Below are positions 35,696-50,603 of a DNA stretch of 55,262 nt, piece by piece (the stretch's first letter is position 1; each line of letters starts with the position of its first letter). The notes beneath the pieces were generated by a model, which was given only the letters and a program-made list of their open reading frames with translations, did no database searches and was not told the DNA's origin. Location: NCBI RefSeq assembly GCF_902652685.1, contig NZ_CACRUY010000036.1, positions 1 through 55,262 of the forward strand. The letters run 5' to 3'. Source of the stretch: Mycobacterium sp. Marseille-P9652. Its GTDB lineage: Bacteria; Actinomycetota; Actinomycetes; Mycobacteriales; Mycobacteriaceae. A program made the translations under genes and the position numbers.

Positions 35696-37180
35696 TCAGC
35701 CCACGGGGTACCCCACCGACTTGACCTCGGTGTACTGGTCGAAGCCGGCCACCCCGTTCTGGCGTCCCACCCCCCTGTACTTGTACCCGCCGAATGGGGT
35801 GTCGGCGCCGTAGGGGGCGCCGCCGTTGACGCCGATGAAGCCCGCGCGGATGCGGCGGGCCACCGCCAGCGAACGCTCCAGCGAGCCGGACATCACGTTG
35901 CCCGCCAGACCGTACTTGCTGTCGTTGGCGATCCGGATCGCGTCCTCCTCGTCGTCGTACGGGATGACCGACAGCACCGGGCCGAAGATCTCTTCCTGCG
36001 CGATGGTCATCGAGTTGTCGACGTTGACGAAAAGCGTTGGCCGCACGAAGAATCCCTTGTCGAAGCCGGTGGGGGCGTCCGGTCCGCCGACGAGGGCGGT
36101 GGCCCCCTCCTCGACACCCTTGCGGATGTAGCCCATCACCCGATCGCGCTGCCGCTCCGAAATCACCGGGCCGCAGAGGGTTCCGGGGTCCTGCGGGTCG
36201 CCGCAGGTGACGTTCTCGTAGATGCTCTGGAGAATCGCCACCCCCTCGTCGTAGCGGGACCGCGGCAGCAGCATCCGGGTCGGGTTGGCGCAGCCCTGGC
36301 CGGCGTGCATGCACGGCGCGATCCCGATCGCGCACGCCAAGCCGAAGTCGGCGTCCTCCAAGACGATGGTGGCCGACTTCCCGCCGAGCTCCAAAAACAG
36401 CCGCTTCATGGTGGCGGCGCCCTTTTCCATGATCCGCTGGCCCACCACCGTCGAACCCGTGAACGAGATCAGGTCGACCTTCGGTGACAAGGTGAGCTCC
36501 TCGCCCACGAAGTGATCCGAGGCGGTGACGACGTTCACCACGCCGGGCGGGATGTCGGTCTTCTCGGCGATCAGCCGGCCCAGCCGGGTCGCGTTGAACG
36601 GCGTGTTCGGCGCCGGCTTGAGCACCACGGTGTTGCCGGTGCCCAGGGCCTGCCCGAGCTTGTTCAGGGTGACCTCGAACGGGAAGTTCCACGGCACGAT
36701 CGCGCCGACGACGCCGACCGGCTCCCGCCACACTTTGATGGACGTGTTCGCGCCGGTCAGGCTGATCACCCGGTCACCCAGATCGGTTTCCCAGGCGTAC
36801 TCGTCGATCAGCCGGGCCGGATACTTCAGGCCGTCCTGCAGCGGGGCGTCCAGCTGGGGGCCGTACGTGATGGCTCGCGGTGCACCGACCTCGAGAATCA
36901 GCTCCTCGCGCAGCTCTTCCTTCTCCGACTCGATCGCCTCGTGCAGCTGGAGCAGGCAGCGCTTGCGCAGCTCCCGGTTGGTCGACCAGTCGGTCTCGTC
37001 GAAGGCCCGCCGGGCGGCGTCGATCGCCCGGTGCATGTCCTCCTTGGACGCGTCGGCAACCTCCCCGAGGCTCTCCTCGGTGGCCGGGTTGATGTTGGTG
37101 AAGGTGCCGGCCTGGCCGTCGACGAGCTTGCCGTCGATCATCATCTTCGGCTCGAAGCGGACCTTTACAGCCTCGGTCAT
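35696..37180 (-). CDS. NAD-dependent aldehyde dehydrogenase
   Basis: A 494-residue ALDH-superfamily enzyme with VVGAIVPWNFPF (N165), K188 in LKPAPNTP, the general base E264 in LELGGKS and catalytic C297 in AGQGC. Length and motif order are normal. ATG 37180 (MTEAVKVRF) is chosen over a 25-codon upstream extension. It lies 90 bases after the P450 gene on the same strand and likely ends that unit: P450 and SDR could generate an alcohol/aldehyde that this enzyme oxidises to an acid. Confidence 0.92.
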   Translation of the reverse strand: MTEAVKVRFEPKMMIDGKLVDGQAGTFTNINPATEESLGEVADASKEDMHRAIDAARRAFDETDWSTNRELRKRCLLQLHEAIESEKEELREELILEVGAPRAITYGPQLDAPLQDGLKYPARLIDEYAWETDLGDRVISLTGANTSIKVWREPVGVVGAIVPWNFPFEVTLNKLGQALGTGNTVVLKPAPNTPFNATRLGRLIAEKTDIPPGVVNVVTASDHFVGEELTLSPKVDLISFTGSTVVGQRIMEKGAATMKRLFLELGGKSATIVLEDADFGLACAIGIAPCMHAGQGCANPTRMLLPRSRYDEGVAILQSIYENVTCGDPQDPGTLCGPVISERQRDRVMGYIRKGVEEGATALVGGPDAPTGFDKGFFVRPTLFVNVDNSMTIAQEEIFGPVLSVIPYDDEEDAIRIANDSKYGLAGNVMSGSLERSLAVARRIRAGFIGVNGGAPYGADTPFGGYKYRGVGRQNGVAGFDQYTEVKSVGYPVG

Positions 37181-37270: not shown

Positions 37271-38488
37271 TCACTGGGGGTCGAAGAGCACCGGCAGCGA
37301 CGTCGGCGACCGGAAGACCTGCCCCCGGATGTGCGGATCGTCGCCCTCGGGATCGAGCCGCAGATTCGGGAGCCGGTCGAGCAAGAGATTGACGGCGGTT
37401 CGCATCTCCAGCCGGGCCAGGTGCATGCCGAGGCAGACGTGTACGCCGTGGCCCCAGGCAAGATTGGGCTTGTACTGCCGGTTGATGTCGAACCGGTCCG
37501 GCTCGGGGTAGCGATCTTCTTGCCGGTTCGCCGAGCCCAGCATCGGCATGACCGTCGCACCGGCCGGGATCGCGACCCCGCCCAGTTCGGTGTCGCGGGT
37601 CGCCACCCGGGTGATGGTCAACAGCGGCGGCTCCCATCGCACGCCCTCCTCGATGGCCTGCGGGAGCAGCGACCGGTCCGCGCGGATGGCGTCCAACTGC
37701 GCCGGATCGCACAGCAGTCCGAACAACAGGCTGCCCAGCGCGCGGTAGGTCGTCTCGACGCCGGCGGGCAGCAGCAGGCGCAGGAACGAGTAGATTTCCT
37801 CGTCCTCGAGCTTTTGCCCGTCGATCTCGGCCCGCGCCAGCGCGCTGATGAGATCGTCCTTCGGTTCGGCGCGGCGGGCCGCGAGGATCGGTGCGAAGTA
37901 GTCGCACAGCGCGGCCGAGGCGGCCAGCCCGCGCTCCGGGTTCATCAGCCAGCTCAGCAGCGAGATCGACCAGCGCTGAAACTGCGGGTAGTCCTCCTGC
38001 GGCAGGCCCAGCAGGCCGGCGATGATCTGGCTGGGGTAATCGAAGGTGAACTCTTTCACCAGATCCGCCTTGCCGCGGGGCGCGAATTCATCGATCAAGG
38101 CGTTTGCTACCCGGCCGACGAGCTCGTCCTGCCATCGCGCCAATGACTTCTGCGAGAACGCCTTTGACACCAACGACCGCAGCCGGCCGTGGATCGGCTC
38201 GTCCATGCCGAGCATCACGCCTTCGCCCAGCACCGGTCCGAACGCCGCGATCACGGCCGACGACGAGAACGTCTCGTTGTCGCGCAGCATCTGCTGGACG
38301 TCCTCGTGGCGATACACGATGAACATCGGCAGCGATTCCTCGTGCGGCAGCGCCCCCGACGTCTCCAGGCGCTGCACCGGTTCTTCGCGGCGAATCCGCG
38401 CCAGTTCGGTGTACGGGTCGCGCACGTCACCGGATATCGCGTCGTCGAAGGCGCCGAAGTCCGCCAGGTCGTCGAAAAGCTGTTCCAT
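37271..38488 (-). CDS. Cytochrome P450
   Basis: A 405-residue soluble bacterial-type P450. Haem motif AWGHGVHVCLG carries the axial C352; the first motif position is Trp, which the family pattern allows. The I-helix has AGVETT (242-247) and the K-helix E281-x-x-R284. ATG 38488 shares one base with the stop of the SDR gene (TAATG), so translation is coupled. Electron donors (ferredoxin, reductase) are not encoded nearby. Probable hydroxylation of a lipid-like substrate handled by the cluster. Confidence 0.94.
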   Translation of the reverse strand: MEQLFDDLADFGAFDDAISGDVRDPYTELARIRREEPVQRLETSGALPHEESLPMFIVYRHEDVQQMLRDNETFSSSAVIAAFGPVLGEGVMLGMDEPIHGRLRSLVSKAFSQKSLARWQDELVGRVANALIDEFAPRGKADLVKEFTFDYPSQIIAGLLGLPQEDYPQFQRWSISLLSWLMNPERGLAASAALCDYFAPILAARRAEPKDDLISALARAEIDGQKLEDEEIYSFLRLLLPAGVETTYRALGSLLFGLLCDPAQLDAIRADRSLLPQAIEEGVRWEPPLLTITRVATRDTELGGVAIPAGATVMPMLGSANRQEDRYPEPDRFDINRQYKPNLAWGHGVHVCLGMHLARLEMRTAVNLLLDRLPNLRLDPEGDDPHIRGQVFRSPTSLPVLFDPQ

Positions 38489-39468
38489 TACTTCTCCCCT
38501 GATTGTTGATGCCGCGCGGCCAGGCGCTCCAGCAGCGGCTTCGGCAGAATCCGCGCGACGAGCACCATCCCGCGTTGGGCAGCGGTCAACGGCCACGCAC
38601 CGCCGCGCATCGACCCCTGCCGGGGTATGCCCAGCACGATCCGCGACATGTGATGCATACCCGAGGCCGGCATGAATCTGTTGGCGGCCAACAACATCGA
38701 CGCATCCAGACCGACGCCGCGGCGGCGAAACGCCCCCCGGTCGTTCAGCGCCTCGAGCAGGCCGTCGGCGAACCGCTCGGGCGGCCGTGCAAGCTTCATC
38801 GCCGCCCGCCCGCGGGTGTTCATGGTGGTGTGCAGCCGGGCATACGGGCCGGTGAAGTCGCGGTTGTCGGTGGTCCCCGCGTCCGTGATGATGTCGGTGT
38901 CGTACATCCCGGCGACCAGGATCGTGACGCCGAGACCGAACGGCGCGATCTCGGACGCCATCGCCTCGCCCCAGCGCTCCCTCGCGCCCTTGGCCGCCGA
39001 GTACGGTCCGGTGGCCGGCTGACCCCGCACCCCCGCCGCGCTCGACACCAGGACGATGCGGCCCTCCCCCGCCGCCCGCATCGACGGCAGCAGCGCCTGC
39101 GTGAGGGCGACGGGACCCAGGACACTGGTGGCGAACATGTTGTGCCACAACGCCATATCCGTCTCCTCCACCATGCCGGCCGCGGAGATGCCCGCATTGT
39201 GGACGAGGGCGTACGGCGCACCGACGGCGTCCTCGATCGCCTTGGCGGCTGCGGCCACCGACGCGGCGTCCAGCAGATCGAGCTGGACGCCGATCAGCCG
39301 ATCGTCGTCCGGTCGGGTGCCGGTCGCCTCGCGCAGCGCCGGCATCCCCCGGTCCGGGTCGCGGATGGCCGCGACGACGCGCCACCCGTCACGGTAGAGG
39401 CGGACGGCCGAGGCGAACCCGAGCCCCCGCGACGCCCCGGTGATGACGACGGTGCGCGGCTCAGCCAT
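38488..39468 (-). CDS. Short-chain dehydrogenase
   Basis: A 326-residue classical SDR with a C-terminal extension: TGASRGLG (10-17), HNAG, SSAAG with the catalytic serine and YSAAK. The tail beyond residue 270 (basic, amphipathic, RFMPASGMHHMSR...) could associate with membrane. It overlaps the AveC-like gene by 8 bases and the P450 start by one, so all three are made together. Likely oxidises or reduces the P450/AveC product. Confidence 0.9.
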   Translation of the reverse strand: MAEPRTVVITGASRGLGFASAVRLYRDGWRVVAAIRDPDRGMPALREATGTRPDDDRLIGVQLDLLDAASVAAAAKAIEDAVGAPYALVHNAGISAAGMVEETDMALWHNMFATSVLGPVALTQALLPSMRAAGEGRIVLVSSAAGVRGQPATGPYSAAKGARERWGEAMASEIAPFGLGVTILVAGMYDTDIITDAGTTDNRDFTGPYARLHTTMNTRGRAAMKLARPPERFADGLLEALNDRGAFRRRGVGLDASMLLAANRFMPASGMHHMSRIVLGIPRQGSMRGGAWPLTAAQRGMVLVARILPKPLLERLAARHQQSGEK

Positions 39469-40609
39469 TCTTGCCCGAAGACGCAGTCGCGCACGGACCT
39501 TGGCCCGGTGGCGGCGGCTCGACGTGCGGCCGCCCGTTGGGCTCCCCGCTCGCCCACGTCGACCAGATGCCTACCGAGTAGGGACCTTGGGCGCCGGCCT
39601 TCTCGTAAAATCCTTGCGGGTCATACACTTTGGCCTCGGGGTACGGCCACGGGCAGGCCACCGATGTCGCGGCGTGGCTGACCTTGATGAGCCAGAACCA
39701 GCCACCGTAGGCGAAATAGGACACGTTGATGATGGCGAACATCACCAGGAACGTGCCGAGCACCGGACGCGTCGGGAAGATCTTCGCCTTCGCGGCCAGC
39801 TTCTCCGCAACCGATTTGCCGGTGTCGTCGCGGTAGCACAGGATCGCGGCCGGGATCATCACGAAGGTCACCGACAGCGATTCCCAGATGAGCGGGAATT
39901 GGAAGGTCGTGCCGGTGAACACCGACCCCCACGGGATCACCTGGGCGTAGATGTACATGCCCCAGTGGATCAAGGTGTTCTCCAGGAAGGCATCCATGAC
40001 GAACCCGAGCACCAGGACTATCGCCCCCAGGCAGAGGAGCGGGTGCCGCGACACGAAGGCCTCCGGCCCGTGCCGGGCCTGCAGCCTGCGCAGCATCCAT
40101 ACCCCGGGGAAGTACGGCCCGAAGTAGAACATCACGTATCCGAAGACCACAAAAGGTTCGACCGTGGGCGAGATCGACACCAGTGGCCAGGATTCCGGCC
40201 AATGCACCAGATCGGGGTTGTAGACCGCGAACGGCGACCAGTTCATGATCGGGTCCTGCCACACGATCAGCGTCGTGCACAGGAACATCAGCATCACCGG
40301 GCTCCCGGGATTGCGGCGCCAGCCCCTGACGAACACGATCAACAGCACGATCAGCGCCACGACCGTCGCCCAGTCGAGGAAACCGATGTAGTCCAGCCCG
40401 AACGTGAATCTCACCGGTCGCGGCCGCCCCTGCACGTTCGGGTTGGCGACCCGTGGGTCGAGCGCTACGCGGCAATTCGCGATGAAGAAAAGCGTGAACG
40501 CCGCCAGAGCGGCGCCCGCCACCCAGCCGCCCCAACTTCCCCTGCGATCGGTCCGTGCGGATTTCAGATCCTGTTGCGCCGCAACCGGTGCGGACTGCTC
40601 GGTGCTCAT
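39461..40609 (-). CDS. AveC-like (spirocyclase family) integral membrane protein
   Basis: A 382-residue membrane protein with about eight hydrophobic segments (N-terminal near 28-46, then a series between 75 and 330) and conserved loops PIMNWSPFAVYNPDLVHWPE and WGMYIYAQVIPWG. By pattern it matches the AveC/spirocyclase family; AveC acts in avermectin spiroketal formation and dehydration. Mycobacteria have AveC-like proteins without avermectin clusters, so here the chemistry is unknown. It starts 10 bases after the binding-protein gene and overlaps the SDR gene. Probably a membrane-bound cyclase, dehydratase or lipid-binding partner of the P450. Confidence 0.8.
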   Translation of the reverse strand: MSTEQSAPVAAQQDLKSARTDRRGSWGGWVAGAALAAFTLFFIANCRVALDPRVANPNVQGRPRPVRFTFGLDYIGFLDWATVVALIVLLIVFVRGWRRNPGSPVMLMFLCTTLIVWQDPIMNWSPFAVYNPDLVHWPESWPLVSISPTVEPFVVFGYVMFYFGPYFPGVWMLRRLQARHGPEAFVSRHPLLCLGAIVLVLGFVMDAFLENTLIHWGMYIYAQVIPWGSVFTGTTFQFPLIWESLSVTFVMIPAAILCYRDDTGKSVAEKLAAKAKIFPTRPVLGTFLVMFAIINVSYFAYGGWFWLIKVSHAATSVACPWPYPEAKVYDPQGFYEKAGAQGPYSVGIWSTWASGEPNGRPHVEPPPPGQGPCATASSGKNG

Positions 40610-40619
40610 CGCTCGTCGC

Positions 40620-41732
40620 CTACTCTCCGAAACGGTCGACCAGATGTGAGTTGACGCCGTCGGCGTCGAGGGAGCGGGCCACCAGGTAGCCGGCGCCCAT
40701 CCAACCGCGGCGGGTCCACTTACCGAAGGACACTCGGGTGCCCGGCGCCCCCGAGGCGGCGGGCATCATCTTCACCCGCTCCAGTGCCTCCTTGACCCCA
40801 CGCGGGCTGAGCGGATGCGCGTCAGCGAACGCCCGCACGAGGGTGGCGGCCACGTCACGGTTGACCACCGAGACGCAATATTCCGGACGGCTGCCGTCGT
40901 ATCTCGTCGCGTACCGGTCGAGGAAGTCCTGGCCGATGGGATTGCCCTCGTCGTACTGGTCGACCCCGATCCAGCCCGTGAACGCGTCCCACATGATCGG
41001 ATTCACCCACGCGTTCTGGAACGCGGTGGTCGTGAATCTCGGTGGATCCCAGTCGACGGCCTGCAGAGCGGGGTTGATGAACACGATCCCGAAGCCGAAG
41101 CCAAGGTGCACGAGCGCCTCGGCCTTCGCGTCGTGCAGGGTACGCACGGCCTCGTTGATGTCCTGGGCGGTCTGCGCGATCGCCGCCTCAGCCACGATGC
41201 GGATCCCGTTGCGGCGGCAGGCGCTTCGGAGGTTCTTCAGATAGCTCTCGCCGATCAGGTTCTGTTCGACGAGGACCCCGATCTCGGAGAGACCGCGCTT
41301 GGCGAGCAGGTCCGCGATGAAGATGGGTTCATCGGTCATCGAACCCTGCGGAAATGAGAAGGTCCATTCGCCGAGCCAGTCGTCGGTACCGGTGACGCTG
41401 ATCGCCGGCACCTTGAACCGCTCCTCGATCGCCTCGCGCGTGGGCACGCAGTTGTCGGTGATGTGCGGCCCGAACACCACCAGGCAGCCCTCCTCGACGA
41501 GCTCACCGAACGCGTCGATCACCGCCTTGACCGATCCCTTGGGAAGGCCTTCGACCTCGCGGTAGATCATCTGCACCGGGCGATCCATCACGCCCTGCTC
41601 GACGGCCTCGGAGAAGACGAGGTCGAAGCATCGCGTGAAACTCGCCATCAATTCCTCGGGGAACCCGGGGGGAAGCGTGAAGTCCATCAGGTAGCCGACC
41701 TTGATCGGCTCCGCGCTGCTTTCGTAGGACAT
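40620..41732 (-). CDS. Cytoplasmic periplasmic-binding-protein-fold protein (Leu/AmiC-like)
   Basis: A 370-residue type I periplasmic-binding fold (IKVGYLMDFTLPPGF; VVFGPHITDNCVP; VPAISVTGTDDWLGEW; EIGVLVEQNLIGESYLKNL). There is no signal peptide or lipobox: the protein begins MSYESSAEPIKVGY, and no ABC permease or ATPase genes are near. So it is probably a cytosolic ligand sensor or carrier, like AmiC, and not a transporter subunit. GGGAGGT six bases before ATG 41732 decides the start. A 15-bp operator-like motif lies 46 bases upstream. First gene of the AveC-SDR-P450 unit. Confidence 0.85.
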   Translation of the reverse strand: MSYESSAEPIKVGYLMDFTLPPGFPEELMASFTRCFDLVFSEAVEQGVMDRPVQMIYREVEGLPKGSVKAVIDAFGELVEEGCLVVFGPHITDNCVPTREAIEERFKVPAISVTGTDDWLGEWTFSFPQGSMTDEPIFIADLLAKRGLSEIGVLVEQNLIGESYLKNLRSACRRNGIRIVAEAAIAQTAQDINEAVRTLHDAKAEALVHLGFGFGIVFINPALQAVDWDPPRFTTTAFQNAWVNPIMWDAFTGWIGVDQYDEGNPIGQDFLDRYATRYDGSRPEYCVSVVNRDVAATLVRAFADAHPLSPRGVKEALERVKMMPAASGAPGTRVSFGKWTRRGWMGAGYLVARSLDADGVNSHLVDRFGE

Positions 41733-41777
41733 TCGACCTCCCGGGGCGACCACCGACGTGCACTGACCCCAACGCAA

Positions 41778-41792
41778 AACCTAATATTTGTT
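41778..41792 (-). promoter_or_regulatory. Cluster operator-like site 1
   Basis: AACCTAATATTTGTT fits AACnnAnnnTnnGTT. It lies in the 90-bp gap upstream of the binding-protein gene. Confidence 0.6.
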
Positions 41793-41822
41793 CAGCACCC
41801 TAGCCCGGGCCCGCACGCACCG

Positions 41823-42659
41823 TCAATCAGACCCCAGGTAGATCTCGATCATGTCGCCCAGGGCCGTTCCCATCGCCGCATCGTCGGTGAGCGGCCCGGC
41901 GATCGCGGCCCGGGCCGCCTCCCGCAGGCTCAGGCCGCCGGCGGCCAGCCTGCCCGCCGCGACGAGCACGCGGGTCGACGCCACCTCGCGCAGTCCACCC
42001 GTCTCCAAGCGGCGGATGGCATGACCCAAGCGCACCAGCTCGGCCGCGGTGGCATCGTCCACCCCCGCCTCGCGCTGCACGATCCCCTGCTCGACATCGG
42101 CTGGCGGGAAACCGAATTCGATGGCCACCATCCGCTGACGCGTCGAGTCCTTCAGGTCCTTGAGCACGCTCTGGTAGCCGGGGTTGTACGACACCACCAA
42201 GCCGAATCCGGGCGCCGCGTTCAACGTGACGCCGAGGCGCTCGATCGGGAGCTGACGGCGGTAGTCGGCCAGTGGGTGCAGCACCACGGTGGTGTCCTGC
42301 CGGGCCTCCACGACCTCGTCGAGGTAGCAGATGGCGCCCTCGCGGACCGCCCGGGTCAGCGGACCGTCCACCCACACCGTCTCGTCGCCCTGCAGCAGGT
42401 ACCGGCCCACGAGATCCGCGGTGGTGAGGTCGTCGTGGCAGGCGACGGTGATCAGCGGGCGGCCGAGGTCGTGGGCCATCGCCTCGACGAATCGGGTCTT
42501 CCCGCAACCGGTCGGCCCCTTCAGAAGCAGCGCCAGCCCCTGCCGGTAGGCCGCCTTGAAGACCGCCTCCTCGTTGCCGATCGCCTGATAGTAGGGCCGC
42601 ACCGGTTCCGCCTCGACGCCCCCGCCGACCCGCCGAGCCAGCCCGGCCTCGTCGCCCAT
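41823..42659 (-). CDS. MoxR-type AAA+ ATPase, CbbQ/NorQ/NirQ-like
   Basis: A 278-residue AAA+ ATPase: Walker A GPTGCGKT (48-55), Walker B CYLDEV (111-116), then NPGYQ and STRQRM with the sensor/arginine-finger region. This matches the CbbQ/NorQ group, which works with a von Willebrand A partner (CbbO/NorD) to activate a metalloenzyme (Rubisco, nitric oxide reductase) by inserting or remodelling it. The partner gene lies 20 bases upstream. ATG 42659 is supported by AGGGAAGG just before it. The client here must differ from NOR or Rubisco, since neither is encoded nearby; the P450, AveC-like protein or dehydrogenases are candidates. Confidence 0.92.
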
Positions 42660-42679
42660 AGCCACCTTCCCTGAGTGAA

Positions 42680-44449
42680 TCAACGACCGCGAACGTGCGT
42701 GGATGTACGCGACTCGCCGCGTGTCGTCGCGCCGACACGCACGCTCACGGTTCGTCGCCGGACTTCGGCCGAGCGCAGCGCGGAGCGGAACAGCGGTCCG
42801 ATGACACCGGCGAGTTGGTCCGGCCGCGCGATCGTCGCGTGGGCGGTATCGCCGAACACCCGGCGCAGGGAGGGCACGTCGGTGCCGGCCCCGATCGTGA
42901 GGCACACGCTGCCGGTGCCGCGCCGCCGGGCCTCGGCCAGCGCCCGTCGCGCGTCGGCGGCGCCGTACGCCCGTTCGTACCCGTGGTCGTACGCGAGCCC
43001 GTCCGACAACACCACCAACAGCCGCCGGGACGTGCCGCCGCGCGCCTCCACGACCGCCGACCCGTGGCGGATCGCCGCACCCAGGCGGGAGTACGCGCCC
43101 GGCTCGAGGCTGTTGAGCCGCTTCATCACTCGCGAATCCAGATGGTCGTCGAATCGCTTGACGGGCACCATGGTGACCGCGCCTCGGCCCTGTGAGTAGT
43201 AGGCGTACAGCGCGACGCGGTCACCGAGGTCGTGCAACGCGACGGCGAGATTGGCGACGGCCGCGCGCTGTTGTTCGTGCACGGTGCGGCCCGCGGTCCC
43301 GGGCTCCGCCGCCGACCCGGAGACATCGAGGAGGAGGAGGACCGACAAATCGCGGCGACGTCGCAGGCTGGCGAGGTACACCGACTCGTCGGGGACCGAC
43401 CGGGCCAGCACCTCGACACGCGCCTCGACCGCCGCGTCGATGTCGATGTCGTCACCCTGCGACTGGCGGTGGCACCGGTGCGGGCCCACCCCCAGGCGCG
43501 CCAAGGGGCGCCGCACCCCGACGGCGGCTTCGATAGCGTGGGTGGCCGACGCGCTGATCTGCGGCTCCACCTCACGCACGGTGCACCACGCGGGCCGGTA
43601 ACGACGGCGCGCCGCGTCCCACTCCGGATACCTCAGGCCGTCCTCGCCCGGCGAACGCCGGTAGCCGTCGGCGGCGTCGTTCGACACCGCCGCCAGCGAG
43701 GACACCGCGTGCGCACCGCGTGTCGCGGAGTCGGTCCGGTGTGTCGGGGTGTCCGCGCCGGGCGGCCCACCGCCGCTACCCGTCTTGCGCGCGGACGACA
43801 GCATCTTCTTCAACCACGTGCCGATGAAGCCGCCCCCGCCGACCGGGCTGGTGAACAGGTCCGGATCGTCGGACTCGTCGGTCGCCGCCGCGTCGAGTTC
43901 GTCGAGTTCCGGGGCGCCGCGGCGTCGCGGGGCGTGACCTTGGTTCTCCCTTTGCTCCTGTTCCGCGGCCCGCGCGGACGCGATCAGCTTCGCCGGGCGA
44001 ATCCCGCCGAATTCCGGCGGTGGGTCTCCGACCGCCGCCCTGCTACGGGCGACGTCGAGGGAATCCGCGGGTGACCCACTGCGACAGGCGATCTCGGGGT
44101 CTCCTAGGGAGGCCAACGTCGCGGGGAGCAGGTCGGAATTGCCGACCAGAGCGCGGTGCCCCTCGACCGCCAGGTAGCGGGTGGCCAGCCGCGGGCGGTG
44201 CAGGATTGCCCGCGCGACGACGGCATCCAGGCTGCCGGCCCCGATCATCGAGGCCTGAACGGCTACCGCTTCCAGTCTGGCGCGCGACGGTGCACACGCG
44301 TCGACGTAGATCGTGTGGCCGTCCGTCCACGCAGGTCCCGGCGAAGCATGTCCCGCCACCGCGACCGGCCGGCCGGCGAGCGCCGACGCGAACATGCTCA
44401 AGCCGGGTGACCACGGGGTCTGGGCGTCGTTCGCCACGCTCGACCTCAT
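42680..44449 (-). CDS. VWA-domain protein, CbbO/NorD-like partner of the MoxR ATPase
   Basis: A 589-residue protein. The N-terminal two-thirds contains an alpha-helical region, an acidic linker ([10 protein letters not shown]) and a Gly/Ser-rich insert; the C-terminal third is a von Willebrand factor A domain with an intact [14 protein letters not shown], the later Thr/Ser positions and VLSDGLAYD. It is the NorD/CbbO-type adaptor that recruits the client to the MoxR ATPase. ATG 44449 (MRSSVAND) is taken; the frame is open to 44512 but crosses the promoter. First gene of the VWA-MoxR unit, read from a promoter with TTGACC and TACGGT 17 bases apart. Confidence 0.9.
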
Positions 44450-44462
44450 TTGCACACGGCGT

Positions 44463-44513
44463 CGTTGACCAAATATCTGTTCCACCGTAAGGTCCCGGCG
44501 TACCGCGGTCAAT
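44463..44513. promoter_or_regulatory. Overlapping divergent promoters A, with cluster operator-like site 2
   Basis: Plus strand: TTGACC (44465-44470), 17-base spacer, TAAGGT (44488-44493). Minus strand: TTGACC (44507-44512), 17-base spacer, TACGGT (44484-44489). The two -10 elements overlap, so the promoters exclude each other. The operator-like motif GACCAAATATCTGTT lies at 44467-44481, across the plus -35/spacer and the minus transcription start. The minus promoter serves the VWA gene, the plus promoter an SDR remnant. Confidence 0.75.
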
Positions 44514-44628
44514 GAACGGCGCAGCCCCTCGCATGCACTGCACCATTGATTCCACCGGCCGGGCCGCGGTGGTCACCCGCGGCGGCCGGGGGCTGGGGCG
44601 TCTTCACCGGCTCGAGCGAGCGCGTTGA
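44512..44628 (+). pseudogene. Remnant of a short-chain dehydrogenase gene (38 codons)
   Basis: ATG 44512 to TGA 44626-44628 encodes a peptide containing GRAAVVTRGGRGLGR, the N-terminal Rossmann motif of an SDR (normally VVTGGGRGLGRAHA), then LHRLERAR, then a stop inside the second promoter. The rest of an SDR is absent. Downstream of promoter A and ended by promoter B, it looks like a gene truncated by deletion or by insertion of a duplicated promoter. Confidence 0.6.
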
Positions 44629-44673
44629 CCAGATTTCCGCTCCGCCGTAGAGTCCGGCTTGGCCGCAGTCAAT
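44623..44673. promoter_or_regulatory. Promoter B, degenerate duplicate of promoter A
   Basis: Plus strand: TTGACC (44625-44630), 17-base spacer, TAGAGT (44648-44653), driving the acyl-CoA dehydrogenase genes. The minus-strand copy TTGACT/TACGGC (17 bases apart) is also retained. The block aligns with promoter A at an offset of 160 bp with roughly three quarters of bases identical. The operator-like motif is degenerate here (GACCAGATTTCCGCT). Confidence 0.7.
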
Positions 44674-44691
44674 CGCGCGAAGTCGAGCAAC

Positions 44692-45843
44692 GTGGATTTC
44701 TCATACCCGGCGGAAGTCGAGCAGTTCCGCGCCGACCTGCGCACCTGGCTCTCGGACAATCTCACCGAAGAGCTTGTGGCGGCGCGCCGTTCCCCCGGCC
44801 GTGACGACGCGACGTTCGAACTCCTGCGCGCCTGGAACCGCACGATCGCCGACGCCGGATGGGCGGCGGTCTCCTGGCCGCGGGAGTACGGCGGCCGCGG
44901 CGCGACACTCCTCGAGCAACTCGTCCACAGTGAGGAGACCACACGGGCGCGGGCGCCCATGCCGCTCAACGTCATCGGCATGAACAACATCGCGCCGGCC
45001 ATCATGCAATACGGCTCCGAAGCCCAGAAGCTGACTCTGCTTCCCCGCATGATGCGCGGCGACGACATCTGGTGCCAGGGCATGTCCGAACCGGAGGCGG
45101 GGTCCGATCTCGCCGCGCTGCGCACTCGCGCAATCCGCGACGGCGACGACTTCGTCATCAACGGGCAGAAGATCTGGACCTCCCTGGGCCATCGCGCCCA
45201 GTGGTGCCAGCTCTACGTCCGCACCGATCCGGAAGCTCCGAAGCACAAGGGCATCTCCTGCCTCATCGTGGACATGACCCTGCCGGGCATCGAGGTGCGC
45301 CCGCTCGTCACGCTGAACGGCGACACCGATTTCGCCGAGGTCTTCTTCCACGATGTGCGGGTGCCCGCTACCGCGCTCCTCGGCCCGCTCGACGGCGGCT
45401 GGCGGGTGGCTACCACCACGCTGAGCCACGAACGCGCCGGGGCCGCGCGACTGTACGCCGAGTTGGAGGTGCGACTGGAGGAACTGGTGGCCGACTTCGC
45501 CGCCGCCGGCTGCCTCGACGACCCGGTCACCCTGCGGCGCCTCGGCGAGATCGCGGTTCGCATCAAGTATCTCGAGGTCCTGTGCCAGCGATCGATCTCG
45601 GCGACGCTGCACGGGGGCTCAGAGAAGACCGCCATGGGATCGGCGAGTCTCGCCAAGACCGTGTGGGGCGAGATCGGACAGGACATGGCGGCGTTGGCCT
45701 TTGACGTCCTGGGCTGGCGGGTGCCGCAGGGCCGCTGGGTCGACTACCGCCTCACGTCACGATCCCTGACCATCGCGGGCGGCACGACCCAGATCACGAA
45801 GAACATCACGGCGCAGCGCGTGCTGGGATTGCCCCGCGAATGA
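44692..45843 (+). CDS. Acyl-CoA dehydrogenase, subunit 1 of a pair
   Basis: A 383-residue FadE-type flavoprotein: YPAEVEQFRADLRTWL at the N-terminus, WCQGMSEPEAGSDLAALRT (FAD-binding segment), the DFVINGQKIWTSLGHRA block and the C-terminal TSRSLTIAGGTTQITKNI motif. GTG 44692 is preferred; TTG 44659 would start almost at the predicted transcription start. Its stop overlaps the next gene (ATGA). Tandem, unequal FadE genes in mycobacteria usually make alpha2beta2 enzymes acting on steroid or other bulky side-chain CoA thioesters. Confidence 0.9.
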   Translation: MDFSYPAEVEQFRADLRTWLSDNLTEELVAARRSPGRDDATFELLRAWNRTIADAGWAAVSWPREYGGRGATLLEQLVHSEETTRARAPMPLNVIGMNNIAPAIMQYGSEAQKLTLLPRMMRGDDIWCQGMSEPEAGSDLAALRTRAIRDGDDFVINGQKIWTSLGHRAQWCQLYVRTDPEAPKHKGISCLIVDMTLPGIEVRPLVTLNGDTDFAEVFFHDVRVPATALLGPLDGGWRVATTTLSHERAGAARLYAELEVRLEELVADFAAAGCLDDPVTLRRLGEIAVRIKYLEVLCQRSISATLHGGSEKTAMGSASLAKTVWGEIGQDMAALAFDVLGWRVPQGRWVDYRLTSRSLTIAGGTTQITKNITAQRVLGLPRE

Positions 45844-46961
45844 ACCTCGAGCTCAGCGACGAGCAGGTGGCGCTGCGCGACACCGTGCGCCGCTTCCTCG
45901 CCGAGAAGGCGCCGCTGTCGAGCCACGTGCGTCCGTTGCTCGACGACGAGACGGGGACCACCGACGCCACCTGGCGGAGCCTCGCCGACCTGGGGACCAC
46001 CGGCCTGTTGGTGCCGCCGGAATTCGGCGGCGCCGGCATGACGATGACCGAGGCGGGCGTCGTCGCGGAGGAACTCGGCGCCGCCGTGCACCCGGGGCCG
46101 TGGTTGTCGACGGCGGTCGCCGCGCCGCGCGCCCTGACCCGATGCGGTGCCGCCGGCGCGGCGACCGAGATCTTGACCGGCATCGCCGACGGCAGCGCCA
46201 TCGCGGCGGTCGGACCGCTGGAGCCGGGCCCCGGCCCGGTGGCCGTTCAGCGCGGGGCGGACGTCGCGCTGAACGGCGCGGTTCCGATGTCGGACGCGGC
46301 GGCGGCCGACGTCTTGCTGGTGTTCGCCGAATACCGGCAGTCGGTGGGCCTTTTCGCGGTGCGGACGCGCTCGGACGGCGTCTCGCTGACTCGCGAGCGC
46401 GGCGTCGACCCGACGCGCAAGCGATTCCGGGTCAGGTTCGACGACGCGGCCGCGCAGTGGCTGGGCAATGCCGCACCCGACGCCTTCGGGGCGGTGGTCG
46501 ACGACGTGCTGATCGCCACGGCCGCCGACGCGCTCGGCGCCGCGCGCGAGATCATGCACCTGGCCGTCGAATACGCCAAGGTGCGAAGGCAGTTCGGCCA
46601 TGCCATCGGCTCGTTCCAGGCCATCCAGCACCTCTGTGTGGACATGTTCGAGACGGTCGAGCTGGCCCGCAGCGGAGTGATACACGCGTTGTGGGCGGCC
46701 GACAACGCGGATCCCGGCGAGCGGCACCTGTCCGCCCTGCGCGCCAAGGCATTCGCCGGCCGGCTTGCCACCGTTGGGGACACCGCGATCCAGATTTTCG
46801 GCGGCATCGGCTACACGTGGGAACACGACGCCCACCTGTACCTCAAGCGCCTACTCGGCTGGAGCACGTTCCTCGGTGGGCCCGACCGCTACCTCATCGA
46901 GCTGGGGTCCGCCCTCGCGAACGGTGCGGTGCCCGGGCTCGGCCGCATCGAAGCCCGGTAG
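45840..46961 (+). CDS. Acyl-CoA dehydrogenase, subunit 2 of a pair
   Basis: A 373-residue FadE protein, divergent from its neighbour: MNLELSDEQVALRDTVRRFL start, a shortened and changed FAD-binding middle part (no SEPEAGSD-like stretch is visible; instead PLEPGPGPVAVQRG), and the conserved C-terminal QFGHAIGSFQAIQH and IQIFGGIGYTWEHDAHLYLKR blocks. Loss of one motif set in each partner is typical of heteromeric acyl-CoA dehydrogenases that share FAD sites across the interface. ATGA overlap with subunit 1. Confidence 0.9.
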   Translation: MNLELSDEQVALRDTVRRFLAEKAPLSSHVRPLLDDETGTTDATWRSLADLGTTGLLVPPEFGGAGMTMTEAGVVAEELGAAVHPGPWLSTAVAAPRALTRCGAAGAATEILTGIADGSAIAAVGPLEPGPGPVAVQRGADVALNGAVPMSDAAAADVLLVFAEYRQSVGLFAVRTRSDGVSLTRERGVDPTRKRFRVRFDDAAAQWLGNAAPDAFGAVVDDVLIATAADALGAAREIMHLAVEYAKVRRQFGHAIGSFQAIQHLCVDMFETVELARSGVIHALWAADNADPGERHLSALRAKAFAGRLATVGDTAIQIFGGIGYTWEHDAHLYLKRLLGWSTFLGGPDRYLIELGSALANGAVPGLGRIEAR

Positions 46962-46990
46962 CCCCCAGCAGCGATCGACCTTCGCCGCGA

Positions 46991-47010
46991 AACAAATCTT
47001 AGGTTATGCT
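46991..47010 (+). promoter_or_regulatory. Cluster operator-like site 3 with a -10 element
   Basis: AACAAATCTTAGGTT (46991-47005) fits AACnnAnnnTnnGTT and overlaps TATGCT (47005-47010), a likely -10 for the LLM gene. A repressor here would block transcription of the LLM/DapB-like unit. Confidence 0.6.
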
Positions 47011-47012
47011 AC

Positions 47013-47035
47013 CGACGGACCGCGGCGGTCCGTCG
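47013..47035 (+). other. GC-rich hairpin in the leader of the LLM gene
   Basis: CGACGGACCG (47013-47022) and CGGTCCGTCG (47026-47035) form a perfect 10-bp stem with a 3-base loop, starting three bases after the -10 element. It could act as a 5' stabilising stem or as an end signal for the upstream operon. No T-tract follows. Confidence 0.6.
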
Positions 47036-47058
47036 CGCTACGTGCTGGGAGTTGTTGG

Positions 47059-48054
47059 ATGTTGACGCTCAGGTTCGACATGCGCAGCCCCCGCTGGGGT
47101 CCCCCGACGCGAGACCTGTACGCGGCGGCGATCGACATGTGCGCCTGGGCGGAGCCGCGGGGCGCGGTCCTCGTGGTGCTCTCCGAGCACCACGCCACCG
47201 AAGACGGACATCTGCCCGCGCCGACCATCCTCGCGTCCGCGATCGCCGCGCGAACCACCAACCTCGCCATTCTCCTTGCGGCGGTGCCGCTTCCGCTGTG
47301 GGACCCGGTGCGGTTGGCCGAGCAGATCAATGTCCTCGACCTCGTCAGCAACGGCCGCGTGTCCTACGCCTTCGGCGTCGGGCATCGCGAAGCGGAGTAC
47401 GCCCACTTCGGCGTGGACTGGGCGGCGCGCGGCCGGCTCGCCGACGAAAACCTCGCGGCCGTACGGAGCCTCGTTGTCGGCGAGCCCTTCGACTATCGCG
47501 GGCGACGGGTATGCGTGACACCGTCGTGCGGGAGCCGGAAGGGCCCACCGATGGTCATCGCCGGCGGCAGTGCGGCGGCCGCCCGACGAGCGGCCCAACA
47601 CGGCATGGGACTGATCGCACAGGCGGACGTGCCCGGCCTCGCGGAGACGTACGAGACTCTCTGCCGCGCTCAGGGCCGAGAGCCCGGCTTCGTCCAGTTC
47701 CCGATCGCCGGCGCGCCGACTACGGTGTTCGTCACCGACGACGTCGATCACGCGTGGCAGGAACTCGGGCCGCATCTGCTGCACGACGCCGTCACGGCGG
47801 CAAGCTACCGCCACGGGGACGACTCGGTCGCCAGCATCACCCGCGCCACGACGGTCTCCGAATTGCGGGAATTTGATGGTCCGTACCGCATCATGACCCT
47901 CGACGAAGCCGAGGCATACGTCCGCGACGGACGGCCACTGCCGCTGCACCCGCTGTGCGGCGGCGTCGCCCCCGAGGTGGCATGGCGCTACCTGACCCTC
48001 GCCGCCGACGCCGTCGACTCCGCACAACGGCCAGTCACCAAAACGGCGGGATGA
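47059..48054 (+). CDS. LLM-class flavin-dependent oxidoreductase
   Basis: A 331-residue luciferase-like TIM-barrel protein: VLVVLSEHHATEDGHLP near the N-terminus (the usual substrate-pocket His pair), TNLAILLAAVPLPLWDPVRLAEQ, VSYAFGVGHREAEY, and GPPMVIAGGSAAAARRAA. It could use FMN or F420. GGAG nine bases before ATG 47059 supports that start; upstream frame is a shadow of the FadE gene. ATGA overlap with the DapB-like gene. Probably a monooxygenase or hydride-transfer step on the cluster substrate. Confidence 0.9.
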   Translation: MLTLRFDMRSPRWGPPTRDLYAAAIDMCAWAEPRGAVLVVLSEHHATEDGHLPAPTILASAIAARTTNLAILLAAVPLPLWDPVRLAEQINVLDLVSNGRVSYAFGVGHREAEYAHFGVDWAARGRLADENLAAVRSLVVGEPFDYRGRRVCVTPSCGSRKGPPMVIAGGSAAAARRAAQHGMGLIAQADVPGLAETYETLCRAQGREPGFVQFPIAGAPTTVFVTDDVDHAWQELGPHLLHDAVTAASYRHGDDSVASITRATTVSELREFDGPYRIMTLDEAEAYVRDGRPLPLHPLCGGVAPEVAWRYLTLAADAVDSAQRPVTKTAG

Positions 48055-49187
48055 CAACACCGATGCCGTCGTCCGCGTCGCCCACCGGGCCGCTTCGCAC
48101 CGTCGTGTGGTCCACCGGGGGCGTCGGCTCGGCCGCCATCGACGCCATCAGCCGCCGGCCCGACCTCGACCTCGTCGGGGTGTGGGTGCACTCCCGCGAC
48201 AAAGTCGGGGCGGACGCGGGCCTGTTGGCCGGCGGGGAACCGTTGGGGCTCTGCGCCACCGACGACGCCGACGCGTTGATCGCGCTGCGACCCGACTGTG
48301 TCGTCTATGCCGCGAGCGGCCCCGACCGCGACGCGGGGGCCGTGCCCGCATACGTCAGGCTCTTGCGGGCCGGCCTCAACGTCGTCTCGACGTCGTCGAC
48401 CGCCCTGGTGTACCCGCCCGCCTACTTCGCGGCCCAGTGGCGCGACGAACTCGAGGCGGCGGCCCGCGCCGGGAAGGCATCGCTGTACGTGTCCGGAATC
48501 TTCCCGGGCTTCGCATCGGACCAACTCGCCCTGCTGCTGACCACCCAGTCGAGCGGGATTCGTTCGATCACCGTCAGCGAGGTCGCACTCAACGACCACT
48601 ACCCCGTCGCCGACGTCATGATGGACGGGATGGGGTTCGGCAGGCCGCTTGATTTCGAGCCCCTCCTCGCGACGCCCGGCTTCATCGAATTGGCCTGGGC
48701 CGCACCGATTCGCCTGATCGCCGCGGGGCTCGGGGTGGAGATCGAGGGGGTGCGGGGAACTCTGGACCGCCGGCCGACCGACCGCGACATCGAGGTGGCG
48801 TTCGGAACCATCGCGGCGGGCACCTGCGGCGCGGTGCGCACCAGGGCAGCCGGTGTGGTCGACGGGCGCGACGCGATCGTCCTGGAGCACATCATCCGGA
48901 TGTCGCGCGATGTCGCGCCGGACTGGCCCTCCGCGCACAACGACGCCACGTACCGCGTCGACGTCGACGGGGTCCCCGAGATTCACTGCGAGATGACGGT
49001 GGGAGCCGTCGAGGGGCACGGCGCGGGCCGCGCCGCCATGGCGGCCACCGCCATGCGTGTCGTCAACGCGATCCCCTATGTCGTCGCCGCCGAACCCGGA
49101 CTGCTGAGCTCGCTCGACCTGCCGATGACGCTGCCCCGGTTTGTGTTCGGCGAGCGCACGCCGACCCCTGCCAAGCAAGCCCGATGA
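48051..49187 (+). CDS. Dihydrodipicolinate-reductase-like NAD(P) dehydrogenase
   Basis: A 378-residue Rossmann protein, N-terminal LRTVVWSTGGVGSAAIDAISRRPDLDLVGVWVHS, with the conserved LRAGLNVVSTSSTALVYPP and GIFPGFASDQLALLLT segments of the DapB-like amine/opine dehydrogenase group common in mycobacterial steroid and terpenoid clusters. It lacks the lysine-pathway context, so DapB activity itself is unlikely. Coupled to the LLM gene. Confidence 0.85.
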   Translation: MTTPMPSSASPTGPLRTVVWSTGGVGSAAIDAISRRPDLDLVGVWVHSRDKVGADAGLLAGGEPLGLCATDDADALIALRPDCVVYAASGPDRDAGAVPAYVRLLRAGLNVVSTSSTALVYPPAYFAAQWRDELEAAARAGKASLYVSGIFPGFASDQLALLLTTQSSGIRSITVSEVALNDHYPVADVMMDGMGFGRPLDFEPLLATPGFIELAWAAPIRLIAAGLGVEIEGVRGTLDRRPTDRDIEVAFGTIAAGTCGAVRTRAAGVVDGRDAIVLEHIIRMSRDVAPDWPSAHNDATYRVDVDGVPEIHCEMTVGAVEGHGAGRAAMAATAMRVVNAIPYVVAAEPGLLSSLDLPMTLPRFVFGERTPTPAKQAR

Positions 49188-49233
49188 CGACCGGAGCGCC
49201 GGCCGTCGACCTCTCCCCGTGGTGATAACCTTC

Positions 49234-49248
49234 AACAAAGATTTGGTT
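49234..49248 (+). promoter_or_regulatory. Cluster operator-like site 4
   Basis: AACAAAGATTTGGTT fits AACnnAnnnTnnGTT. It lies 66 bases upstream of the tandem TetR gene, suggesting autoregulation. Confidence 0.6.
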
Positions 49249-49313
49249 CGGCCGGAGGCTCAGTGCAGTCAGTCGCGATTCCGCAGTCCCCACGATCAAC
49301 GGACCGCTAGGAA

Positions 49314-50603
49314 ATGCCCAAAGGCCCGTCTCCGGCGAACAGCCGGCCCGCTCCCACCGACGAAACCGGCACCCGCCGCGACGAAATCCTCACCACCGCA
49401 GCTTCGTTGATCGCGACGTCCGGCCTGCGGACGTCGTTGCAAGAGATCGCCGACGCCGCGGGCATCCTTCCCGGCAGCCTGTATCACCACTTCGAGTCCA
49501 AAGAAGCGATCCTGATCGAGCTGATCCATCGTTATCAGGAAGACCTGGACCGAATCGGGCGCACCGCCCTTTCGCGATTGGACGGGCCCGACCCCCGTCC
49601 CATATCGGATCAGATCGTCGAACTCGGGTCGGCGATCGCCGACTGCGCGGTGCGGCACCGGGCGGCCCTCCAGATGTCCTTCTACGAAGGGCCGAGCACG
49701 GACCCGGAGTTGGTGCAGCTCACGCAACGACGTCCCGTCGCAATCCAGGAGGCGATGCTCCAAACGCTGCGCGCCGGCAGGTGGAGCGGCTACATCAAAG
49801 CCGACCTGGACCTGCCCACGCTGGCCGACCGCATCTGCCAGACCATGCTGCAGGTAGGGCTCGACGTCATGCGCCACCGATCCCCGGCCACCCAGGTCGC
49901 CGGGCTGCTGTGCCGAATCATCCTGCAAGGCTTGGCGGCCCGGTCACCGACCGACTCGTCACTCGATCGGTCCGCCGCCTTCGCCGCCGCCAACGACGCC
50001 ATCGCGACGTGGTCGGACGACGGCGACGCCGACCCCGCGGACAAGGCCGCGCACGTGCGCGCGGTGGCACGGACGGAATTCGGCCGCAGGGGCTATGAGG
50101 TCACCACCATCCGGGACATCGCGTCCGCCGCGGGTCTCGGCACGGGAACCGTCTACCGGGTGATCGGCTCTAAGGACGAACTGCTCGCCTCGATCATGGA
50201 GTCCTTCGGCCGCAAGGTCGAGGCCGGCTGGGTGAGCGTGCTGCGCTCGGACGCGGGTTGCATCGAGAAGCTGGACGCCCTGAGCTGGGTCAACGTCAAC
50301 GCGCTCGACCGGTTCTCCGACGAGTTCCGCATCCAGCTGGCGTGGATGCGTCAGTCGCCGCCCGACACACCCAACCCTGGCTGGCTCTACACCACCCGGC
50401 TCCGGCAGATGAAATCACTGCTGGCGGAGGGCATCCGGTCGGGAGACGTCGCCGTCGACGCCCCGTCCACTGCGATGCTGGCGCGGTGCGTCATCGGACT
50501 GCAGTGGATACCGGAGAACATCTTGAGGGACGTCGGTAAGCGCGCGGCCTTGGTGCACGTCCGCGACACCGTCCTGCGCGGCGCGGCGGTCCGGAGCGGG
50601 TAG
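49314..50603 (+). CDS. Tandem (two-domain) TetR regulator, Mce3R-like architecture
   Basis: A 429-residue protein holding two complete TetR units in one chain. Unit 1 has a helix-turn-helix at about 40-65 (SLQEIADAAGILPGSLYHHF, SKEAIL). Unit 2 has a second one at about 265-290 (TIRDIASAAGLGTGTVYRVI, SKDELL). Single-chain pseudo-dimers of this kind are rare; Mce3R of M. tuberculosis is the known example and represses lipid and steroid side-chain genes. It is located inside the regulon it probably controls. Its predicted asymmetric site would fit the quasi-palindromic operator found upstream of the four transcription units. Confidence 0.9.
   Translation: MPKGPSPANSRPAPTDETGTRRDEILTTAASLIATSGLRTSLQEIADAAGILPGSLYHHFESKEAILIELIHRYQEDLDRIGRTALSRLDGPDPRPISDQIVELGSAIADCAVRHRAALQMSFYEGPSTDPELVQLTQRRPVAIQEAMLQTLRAGRWSGYIKADLDLPTLADRICQTMLQVGLDVMRHRSPATQVAGLLCRIILQGLAARSPTDSSLDRSAAFAAANDAIATWSDDGDADPADKAAHVRAVARTEFGRRGYEVTTIRDIASAAGLGTGTVYRVIGSKDELLASIMESFGRKVEAGWVSVLRSDAGCIEKLDALSWVNVNALDRFSDEFRIQLAWMRQSPPDTPNPGWLYTTRLRQMKSLLAEGIRSGDVAVDAPSTAMLARCVIGLQWIPENILRDVGKRAALVHVRDTVLRGAAVRSG

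Follow-up and report, generated by a model that had tools for sequence, protein, structure and literature searches.

A NorQ/NorD-type MoxR-VWA pair linked to an AveC-like membrane protein, its candidate client, in a conserved mycobacterial operon

The window that we analysed, a whole stretch of 55,262 nucleotides from Mycobacterium sp. Marseille-P9652, carries a predicted operon extending from 44449 to 35696, in which the gene for a VWA-domain protein comes first and an aldehyde dehydrogenase gene comes last, together with a divergent flank that opens with two acyl-CoA dehydrogenase genes (Table 1). Every gene family named in the original prediction has its Pfam match here. The block had been taken to start at 37271, at the P450 gene; the conserved unit reaches further left and includes the aldehyde dehydrogenase. 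A 704-aa open reading frame at 37271-39385 is over-extended, the P450 itself being the shorter protein of Table 1. Its best solved matches are to CYP125MRCA (8vxi, E 9.7e-70; 8vxg, E 1.2e-68), at the head of 408 distinct sequences within an E limit of 1e-10; many other P450s score almost as well. The best NCBIfam models for the second acyl-CoA dehydrogenase, IpdE2 and pimD-small, both score far under cut-off. The binding-protein-fold (PBP) protein has no solved relatives at E up to 0.001 and, its translation being judged by eye, no apparent hydrophobic stretch at its N-terminus; no ABC transporter genes were found among the 20 window translations scanned.

Table 1. Features of the predicted operon, the divergent flank and the sequence between them
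Feature	Position	Strand	Evidence and remarks
Aldehyde dehydrogenase, last operon gene	35696..37180	-	Pfam 1.7e-141
Cytochrome P450, ~405 aa	37271..38488	-	Pfam 3.4e-28
Short-chain dehydrogenase/reductase (SDR)	38488..39468	-	Pfam 4.8e-40
AveC-like integral membrane protein, 382 aa, 7 long predicted helices	39461..40609	-	PF17198 7.1e-66
Peripla_BP_6 binding-protein-fold protein (PBP), 370 aa	40620..41732	-	Pfam 7e-24
NorQ/CbbQ-like MoxR AAA+ ATPase, 278 aa	41823..42659	-	AAA_5 2.7e-33 and CbbQ_C 2.4e-26; NorQ 9qh4
NorD-like VWA protein, 589 aa, first operon gene	42680..44449	-	Pfam VWA_2 1.9e-09; phmmer NorD 9qhd
25-bp element TTGACCAAATATCTGTTCCACCGTA, just upstream of the VWA gene	44465..44489	+	near-invariant; conservation spans ~33 bp
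Second copy of the 25-bp element, upstream of ACD1	44625..44649	+	
Acyl-CoA dehydrogenase 1 (ACD1), start codon uncertain	44659..45843	+	Pfam
Acyl-CoA dehydrogenase 2 (ACD2)	45840..46961	+	Pfam
LLM-class flavin/F420 oxidoreductase, variable, start approximate	47080..48054	+	Pfam Bac_luciferase 7e-37
DapB-like / diaminopentanoate-dehydrogenase-like oxidoreductase, variable	48051..49187	+	Pfam DAP_DH_C 3.5e-13
Tandem TetR regulator, two TetR_N stretches	49314..50603	+	Pfam TetR_N 2.6e-26

Across 80 named mycobacterial loci, those of Mycolicibacterium vaccae and Mycobacterium aurum among them, the PBP gene lies near AveC in all 80, the SDR and P450 genes in 79 each, MoxR in 77 and VWA in 76; named and unnamed loci share genomes (e.g. 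L037 and L186), so that pooled counts do not all represent distinct genomes. Related genomes thus keep a common neighbourhood for these genes and do not have them scattered, and the proposal of a conserved block with its own MoxR-VWA pair is borne out. The aldehyde dehydrogenase occurs in 67 of the 80 loci, ACD1 in 56 and ACD2 in 54, and the tandem TetR gene, in a count limited by the flanks retrieved, in 30; the last recurs with the loci that we call type A (below). Two of the genes first assigned to the block do not belong to its core, and we rejected them as such: LLM is present in 2/80 loci and the DapB-like gene in 1/80 (a count partly limited by the flanks).

The related genome G026 keeps ECH, SDR2, NADB, DUF3556 and PrpD in unchanged order; in the two stretches fetched from it no block gene is found at E up to 1e-15, nor are THL and the PE cellulase, and ~10 kb of other sequence separates ECH from SDR2. 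In 10 genomes where the window's AveC has no match, its aldehyde dehydrogenase reaches at most 58% identity. The block thus seems to come and go as a whole, as might be expected if it were a degradation pathway of ordinary parts in which the MoxR-VWA pair, a general chaperone, persists through operon inertia. We consider this very unlikely, however, since the link between AveC and VWA survives both replacement of the operon around it and divergence of the VWA protein to ~35-40% identity.

MoxR-VWA pairs are widespread, and few of their clients are known. The window's VWA protein matches NorD (9qhd) by phmmer at E 4.5e-34, with residues 31-556 aligned; its solved-structure matches are of NorD type only, and its VWA_CoxE match falls below the cut-off (25.1 vs 26.4 bits). 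It keeps the MIDAS motif DxSxS, and its SDG aligns with the TDG of NorD. DxSxS is present in 125 of 130 unique VWA relatives examined, the exceptions being L061, L097, L102, L145 and L149, of which L097 and L102 are the two non-mycobacterial VWA proteins and L145 and L149 come from AveC-rich genomes. The MoxR protein matches NorQ (9qh4) at E 6.6e-91 and CbbQ nearly as well (5c3c, E 8.6e-88; 6l1q, E 5.7e-87), and all 135 unique MoxR relatives examined contain Walker A and Walker B motifs. On these alignments, the two proteins are homologues of NorQ and NorD over most of their length.

The view that the usual clients are lacking is upheld at the level of the source genome, where RuBisCO has no match and each of the two COX1-family proteins carries HPEVY, which we take to be the mark of ordinary CtaD; we read both as CtaD and neither as NorB-like. 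No NorB or cNOR was found among the window translations scanned. Within the genus, a listed AveC gene lies no more than 6 kb from 147 of the 149 listed VWA matches (median gap 2.1 kb) and at 9.4 and 13.7 kb from the remaining two, and a listed AveC occurs in every one of the 122 genomes that have a listed VWA. The 149 are the matches listed, excluding the window's own, and the genus holds more; the AveC set for this count comprised 138 matches of one search, leaving out the lowest-scoring ones and the window's own, and 93 of a second (those at 558 bits or more plus one lower match, G187:C10, added since it adjoins a listed VWA). Many type-A loci are orthologous, so that the 147 linkages are not 147 independent events. 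A client outside the locus, be it nitric oxide reductase, RuBisCO or some other metalloenzyme, with AveC a neighbour of the pair by accident, is on this evidence the least likely of the readings that we considered: the linkage recurs in several arrangements, no listed VWA match lies more than 14 kb from a listed AveC, and the source genome offers neither RuBisCO nor anything beyond CtaD-like COX1 proteins. What speaks for such a client is the existence of weaker VWA matches (80-92 bits) in G315, G179 and G142, that of G315 having MoxR beside it (L101).

The VWA-AveC linkage is found in at least five gene arrangements, some of them without P450, SDR or PBP. Loci in several of the sets compared were hand-picked and non-random. 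We grouped loci by hand as type A, type B or other linked, leaving out L064, L065, L101, L103, L116, L120 and L123. Within 3.5 kb of AveC, VWA is found in 26/28 type-A, 19/19 type-B and 7/7 other linked cases, and MoxR in 24/28, 15/19 and 7/7; for P450 the corresponding figures are 25/28, 5/19 and 4/7, and for SDR 22/28, 3/19 and 2/7. Diverged AveC genes, recognised by Pfam, are adjoined by VWA paralogues 37-40% identical in L055 and L061, the MoxR-VWA-AveC trio is also found in L097, from another family of the phylum, and VWA-AveC in L102, from a further one.

It could be argued that the P450, or some other soluble enzyme of the cluster, is what the pair activates, AveC being a fellow enzyme of the pathway. 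The P450 does carry a metal cofactor and is near AveC in almost every named locus and type-A case; indeed, in type-A loci linkage is as tight for the P450, PBP and SDR genes as for AveC. Yet no P450 lies within 3.5 kb of AveC in 14 of 19 type-B cases and in 3 of 7 other linked ones, SDR is missing from 16 of 19 and 5 of 7 respectively, and we know of no requirement of P450s for MoxR-VWA proteins, so that we regard a soluble client as unlikely. The P450 as an obligate client was set aside, linked loci without it keeping AveC, MoxR and VWA. Because the linkage persists across such differing gene settings, we single out the AveC-like protein, and not the P450, as the probable client. The original prediction had left open the P450, the AveC-like protein or an oxygenase elsewhere; comparative context narrows this in favour of the AveC-like protein and against the P450. 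We therefore suggest that the operon encodes both a NorQ/NorD-type pair and the membrane protein that it activates, a reading that gene context makes rather likely.

Dependence on the pair would not extend to every AveC protein. In the stretches fetched from five AveC-rich genomes, a single MoxR-VWA pair stands next to AveC in each, which again favours AveC as the client; most AveC copies in AveC-rich stretches, however, have no pair within 3.5 kb (VWA at 8/38, MoxR at 9/38). The genome G132 has at least eight AveC copies within ~150 kb. In 16 of 20 further AveC-bearing genomes VWA of this type is absent at E up to 1e-10, which indicates that the AveC family as a whole needs no pair. In genus g7, provisionally labelled Streptomyces-like, neither MoxR nor VWA was found in any of 15 stretches.

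The AveC-like protein covers profile positions 1-234 of 234 of PF17198 with 222.4 bits (cut-off 26.6). Its AlphaFold2 model (pLDDT 87.8, pTM 0.85) has no PDB match by Foldseek at E up to 0.001, the best being 0.99. We aligned AveC proteins according to the presence of this VWA type in the genome, leaving out L258, L261 and L262 and not aligning L263, whose AveC is in two weak pieces. D119 and E210, which are putative catalytic acids, show conservation both with and without the VWA, and this favours acid/base roles over those of metal ligands delivered by the pair; carboxylates as a clear pair-dependent metal site were accordingly not upheld. No His or Cys is conserved family-wide. Among 25 type-A sequences H136, C319 and C373 do not vary, and a metal site specific to these proteins is conceivable. 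Spiroketalisation and dehydration, to our knowledge, need no metal. In genomes that have this VWA type, loop residues 261 and 262 are more often acidic.

These features also bear on a second reading, with the same client and hence overlapping in its odds with the first, in which the pair is a metal-free repair chaperone of AveC resembling a Rubisco activase, freeing it of bound product or inhibitor. The family-wide lack of conserved His or Cys and the acids shared with genomes lacking this VWA would fit it, as would the close score of CbbQ for the MoxR member, and CbbQ-type relatives are reported to repair Rubisco. Set against this, the VWA protein matches NorD, which together with NorQ inserts iron into a protein of the membrane; we hold repair to be possible, if doubtful.

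If the AveC-like protein is the client, the VWA protein would dock on its cytoplasmic side, for which the loop 260-275 (RDD..G....E) is a candidate, and the MoxR ring would act on VWA using ATP. AveC might thereby be remodelled so that a putative active site close to the outer face of the membrane (D119, E151, D206, E210 and Q237) is switched on, whether a metal is inserted, as in NorB, or the conformation is repaired, as in Rubisco. Its product could then pass to the SDR, P450 and aldehyde dehydrogenase, and to the acyl-CoA dehydrogenases where present, which would oxidise a hydrophobic compound of terpenoid- or lipid-like kind. The neighbouring genes for alcohol, aldehyde and acyl-CoA oxidation agree with lipid or terpenoid oxidation, as far as class of substrate is concerned; the side-chain catabolism of a bulky lipid and the cyclase-like step of the original prediction would be hypothetical at this stage. 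More tentatively, mycobacterial AveC-like proteins could form a so far unrecognised group of enzymes that sit within the membrane and mature with the help of a NorQ/NorD pair of their own. They might be metal-dependent oxygenases or hydratases with terpenoid-like lipids as substrates; Foldseek gave no solved counterpart of their fold, and in some species they would have expanded around a shared activator. This wider proposal we regard as speculative.

CoxE is the VWA partner of the MoxR protein CoxD. The CoxD/CoxE system of CO dehydrogenase resembles ours in that a MoxR ATPase of a mycobacterial CO-dehydrogenase cluster has been reported (PMC12657314), but here the VWA_CoxE match is below cut-off and no CO dehydrogenase was found among the window translations scanned. 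In the case of NorQ/NorD both proteins are homologous and their known client, cNOR, is an integral membrane protein (PMC13036017); here, by contrast, no NorB was found, the linked membrane protein is AveC-like, and the operon adds aldehyde dehydrogenase, P450, SDR and PBP. The CbbQ/CbbO Rubisco activases compare through CbbQ, to which the MoxR protein is almost as close as to NorQ, whereas the genome has no RuBisCO match and the VWA protein's only solved matches are of NorD type. AveC of avermectin biosynthesis, which carries out spiroketalisation and dehydration (PMC13303154), shares the family PF17198, compared by profile; unlike it, the protein studied here has NorQ/NorD alongside and no polyketide synthase was found among the 20 window translations scanned. 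In the accessible part of PMC5819568 a mycobacterial AveC-family protein serves only as an indel marker, and no connection of AveC with MoxR/VWA was found in one library of open-access PMC papers among the matches listed. If our reading is true, a family familiar mainly through a single polyketide pathway would become an ATP-activated membrane enzyme family in mycobacteria and would provide a second case for how NorD-type proteins choose membrane clients; it is also a lead to the function of many mycobacterial operons and AveC-rich regions.

Regulation of the block may involve the 25-bp element of Table 1, which matches twice in the window and in none of 100 shuffles. In 98 of 137 loci it lies no more than 500 bp from the start of VWA, and it is present in 99/107 type-A loci, a set of overlapping genomes, as against 0/74 other loci. 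A search for palindromes upstream of VWA returned mainly GC-rich, low-count strings, which we discarded; the true signal is the 25-bp element, a probable operator or promoter. Assigned to the nearest start, 85 sites go to VWA and 54 to ACD1; inter-gene sites being given to the nearer start, the latter figure does not amount to 54 second copies. At least two sites near VWA were found in 8/137 loci, and an ACD1-type copy 9 times. Through this element the tandem TetR protein probably controls the operon together with ACD1-ACD2. Both window copies are oriented towards ACD1 and away from VWA, an orientation that a simple promoter for the VWA operon leaves unexplained.

This VWA type (the NorD-like member of the MoxR-VWA pair) has one constant partner, the AveC-like seven-transmembrane protein, hereafter AveC. 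VWA was found in 140/198 genomes of the genus, and matches to the window's AveC and to a type-B AveC (from diverged AveC loci with other gene settings) occurred in 119/198 and 96/198 respectively, all at E values up to 1e-20. Among the matches listed, 147 of the 149 VWA genes had an AveC gene within 6 kb, the remaining two lying at 9.4 and 13.7 kb; and profiles detected AveC in all 40 stretches chosen by their VWA match. These included the diverged AveC that adjoins a second VWA group, 37-40% identical to the window's VWA; in L055 and L061 it was missed by tblastn at 1e-15 and recovered by Pfam at 8.6e-105 and 1.8e-94. Within 3.5 kb of 19 type-B AveC genes we found VWA 19 times, MoxR 15, P450 five and SDR three. 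When 40 stretches were instead chosen by their AveC match, MoxR and VWA were both present in 16 (L101 and L103 with a weak VWA match only), VWA alone in one (L102) and MoxR alone in one, at the stretch end (L123).

The pair itself aligns with NorQ and NorD: MoxR matched NorQ 9qh4 at E 6.6e-91, with CbbQ close behind, and residues 31-556 of VWA matched NorD 9qhd at E 4.5e-34, an alignment in which DxSxS is kept and SDG stands opposite the TDG of NorD. Among relatives above the score threshold, Walker A and B were present in 135/135 unique MoxR proteins and DxSxS in 125/130 unique VWA proteins (those of L061, L097, L102, L145 and L149 being the ones without it). The membrane protein cNOR is reported to receive non-haem iron through NorQ/NorD (PMC13036017). 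Most likely, a NorQ/NorD-type machine activates the AveC-like membrane enzyme in a pathway oxidising a hydrophobic compound; such activation would consist of either metal insertion or conformational repair.

AveC also occurs without the pair. PF17198 was rare in our samples, with 7/296 genomes of the phylum, 22/151 of the family and 12/392 of g7, another genus sampled. Neither MoxR nor VWA was found in any of the 15 stretches fetched from g7, and 16 of the 20 AveC-bearing genomes searched (eight from other genera of the family and eight of g7) lacked this type of VWA at E values up to 1e-10, so the pair is not a general requirement of AveC.

The AlphaFold2 model of AveC was confident (pLDDT 87.8, pTM 0.85) and has seven long helices; Foldseek returned no solved counterpart, the best E value being 0.99. 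On our reading by the positive-inside rule, residues 260-275 form a cytoplasmic loop, and D119, E151, D206, E210 and Q237 sit nearer the outer face. Positions 119/151/206/210 read D-E-D-E in 62 of the 68 AveC proteins whose genes have both MoxR and VWA no further than 6 kb away, versus 29 of the 60 whose genes do not, and residues 119, 206 and 210 were acidic in 110 of these 128 proteins versus 4/14 proteins of g7. In a non-redundant set from genomes with (n = 49) and without (n = 18) this VWA type, a comparison confounded by relatedness and alignment error, position 261 was acidic in 84% versus 22% and position 262 in 94% versus 50%, while E210 and D119 were conserved in both sets. Positions 261 and 262 ranked fourth and twenty-second among the discriminating columns, and columns 331, 157 and 97, which have no obvious docking role, ranked ahead of or among them. 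Across the AveC family there was no conserved His or Cys; H136, C319 and C373 were invariant in 25 sequences from type-A loci, those orthologous to the window's. A further AveC-like gene in the window's own genome is short and adjoins a P450; it reads E-V-A-N at 119/151/206/210, and the fetched stretch has no MoxR-VWA.

Features discussed, with positions in the window unless another contig is named
Feature	Position	Strand	Remark
PE-domain protein fused to cellulose-binding domain and GH12 glycosyl hydrolase	34115-35617		Pfam assignment
Seven-gene run, VWA to aldehyde dehydrogenase	35696-44449	-	gaps of 90 bp or less, or small overlaps; gene starts our choice
AveC	39461-40609	-	AveC-like, seven predicted long helices
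MoxR	41823-42659	-	NorQ/CbbQ-like AAA+ ATPase
VWA	42680-44449	-	NorD-like
25-bp element, first copy	44465-44489		near-invariant among type-A loci
25-bp element, second copy	44625-44649		near-invariant among type-A loci
DUF3556 membrane protein	52313-54037		adjoins block; kept in genome without block
Short AveC-like gene (L091)	contig C12, 60919-61599		beside P450

Pfam searches of the window translations recovered every gene that the original prediction had named: P450, SDR, AveC_like, Peripla_BP_6 (PBP), AAA_5/CbbQ_C, VWA_2, two acyl-CoA dehydrogenases (ACD1 and ACD2), a luciferase-like oxidoreductase (LLM), a diaminopentanoate-dehydrogenase-like protein and a tandem TetR. The aldehyde dehydrogenase (ALDH) that ends the seven-gene run falls beyond the interval first proposed. 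In 40 stretches around VWA matches, picked across the identity range and searched with window proteins and profiles, the type-A loci mostly retained ALDH, P450, SDR, AveC, PBP, MoxR and VWA in an almost constant order, and a subset of these loci also has the ACD pair. A scan of named genomes gave 236 type-A AveC relatives, and the best 80, which were retained, all bore Mycobacterium, Mycolicibacterium or Mycolicibacter titles. Near AveC in these 80 we counted PBP 80 times, SDR 79, P450 79, MoxR 77, VWA 76, ALDH 67, ACD1 56, ACD2 54, TetR 30, LLM two and the DapB-like dehydrogenase one; the outer genes are undercounted, since flanks were 8 kb and 12/80 stretches were shorter than 17 kb. Genome G026, in which the two stretches fetched showed none of the block's genes at E values up to 1e-15, keeps the order ECH, SDR2, NADB, DUF3556, PrpD; its ECH and SDR2 are separated by roughly 10 kb of unrelated sequence. 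Where the window's AveC had no match (10 genomes), ALDH matches reached 58% identity at most. Both observations agree with the block having been gained or lost as a unit. Beside one type-A locus (L036), MoxR-VWA-ACD1-ACD2 is duplicated in tandem.

Allowing up to four substitutions, the 25-bp element lay no more than 500 bp from the start of VWA in 98 of 137 VWA loci (at more than one site in eight), versus about nine loci expected if all element sites were spread uniformly. It had no match in 100 shuffled versions of the window. By class, it was present in 99/107 type-A loci, which are orthologues with some genomes counted twice, and in 0/17 type-B, 0/20 AveC-rich (from five genomes with many AveC copies), 0/22 unlinked and 0/15 g7 loci. 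Conservation around it reaches about 33 bp. Judged from its sequence, the element resembles a promoter, TTGACC-N17-TANAGT, directed away from VWA and overlapped by a putative operator, which the tandem TetR would be the natural candidate to bind.

Many diverged AveC copies were found in the five AveC-rich genomes (G132, G164, G045, G018 and G043; stretches L131-L150), with eight copies within about 150 kb in G132 among the matches listed. The fetched stretches of each hold one MoxR-VWA pair with an adjoining AveC; most copies lie more than 3.5 kb from the pair, VWA being near 8/38 and MoxR near 9/38. In G132 the genes around the copies encode, among others, flavin oxidases (PF01593), acyl-CoA dehydrogenases, an acyl-CoA ligase and a thiolase. 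Taken together, the AveC-rich regions hold flavin oxidases, acyl-CoA enzymes and also families of membrane proteins that Pfam did not match at 1e-5; one of these families carries, by eye, a D-x3-E pattern like that of AveC helix 5.
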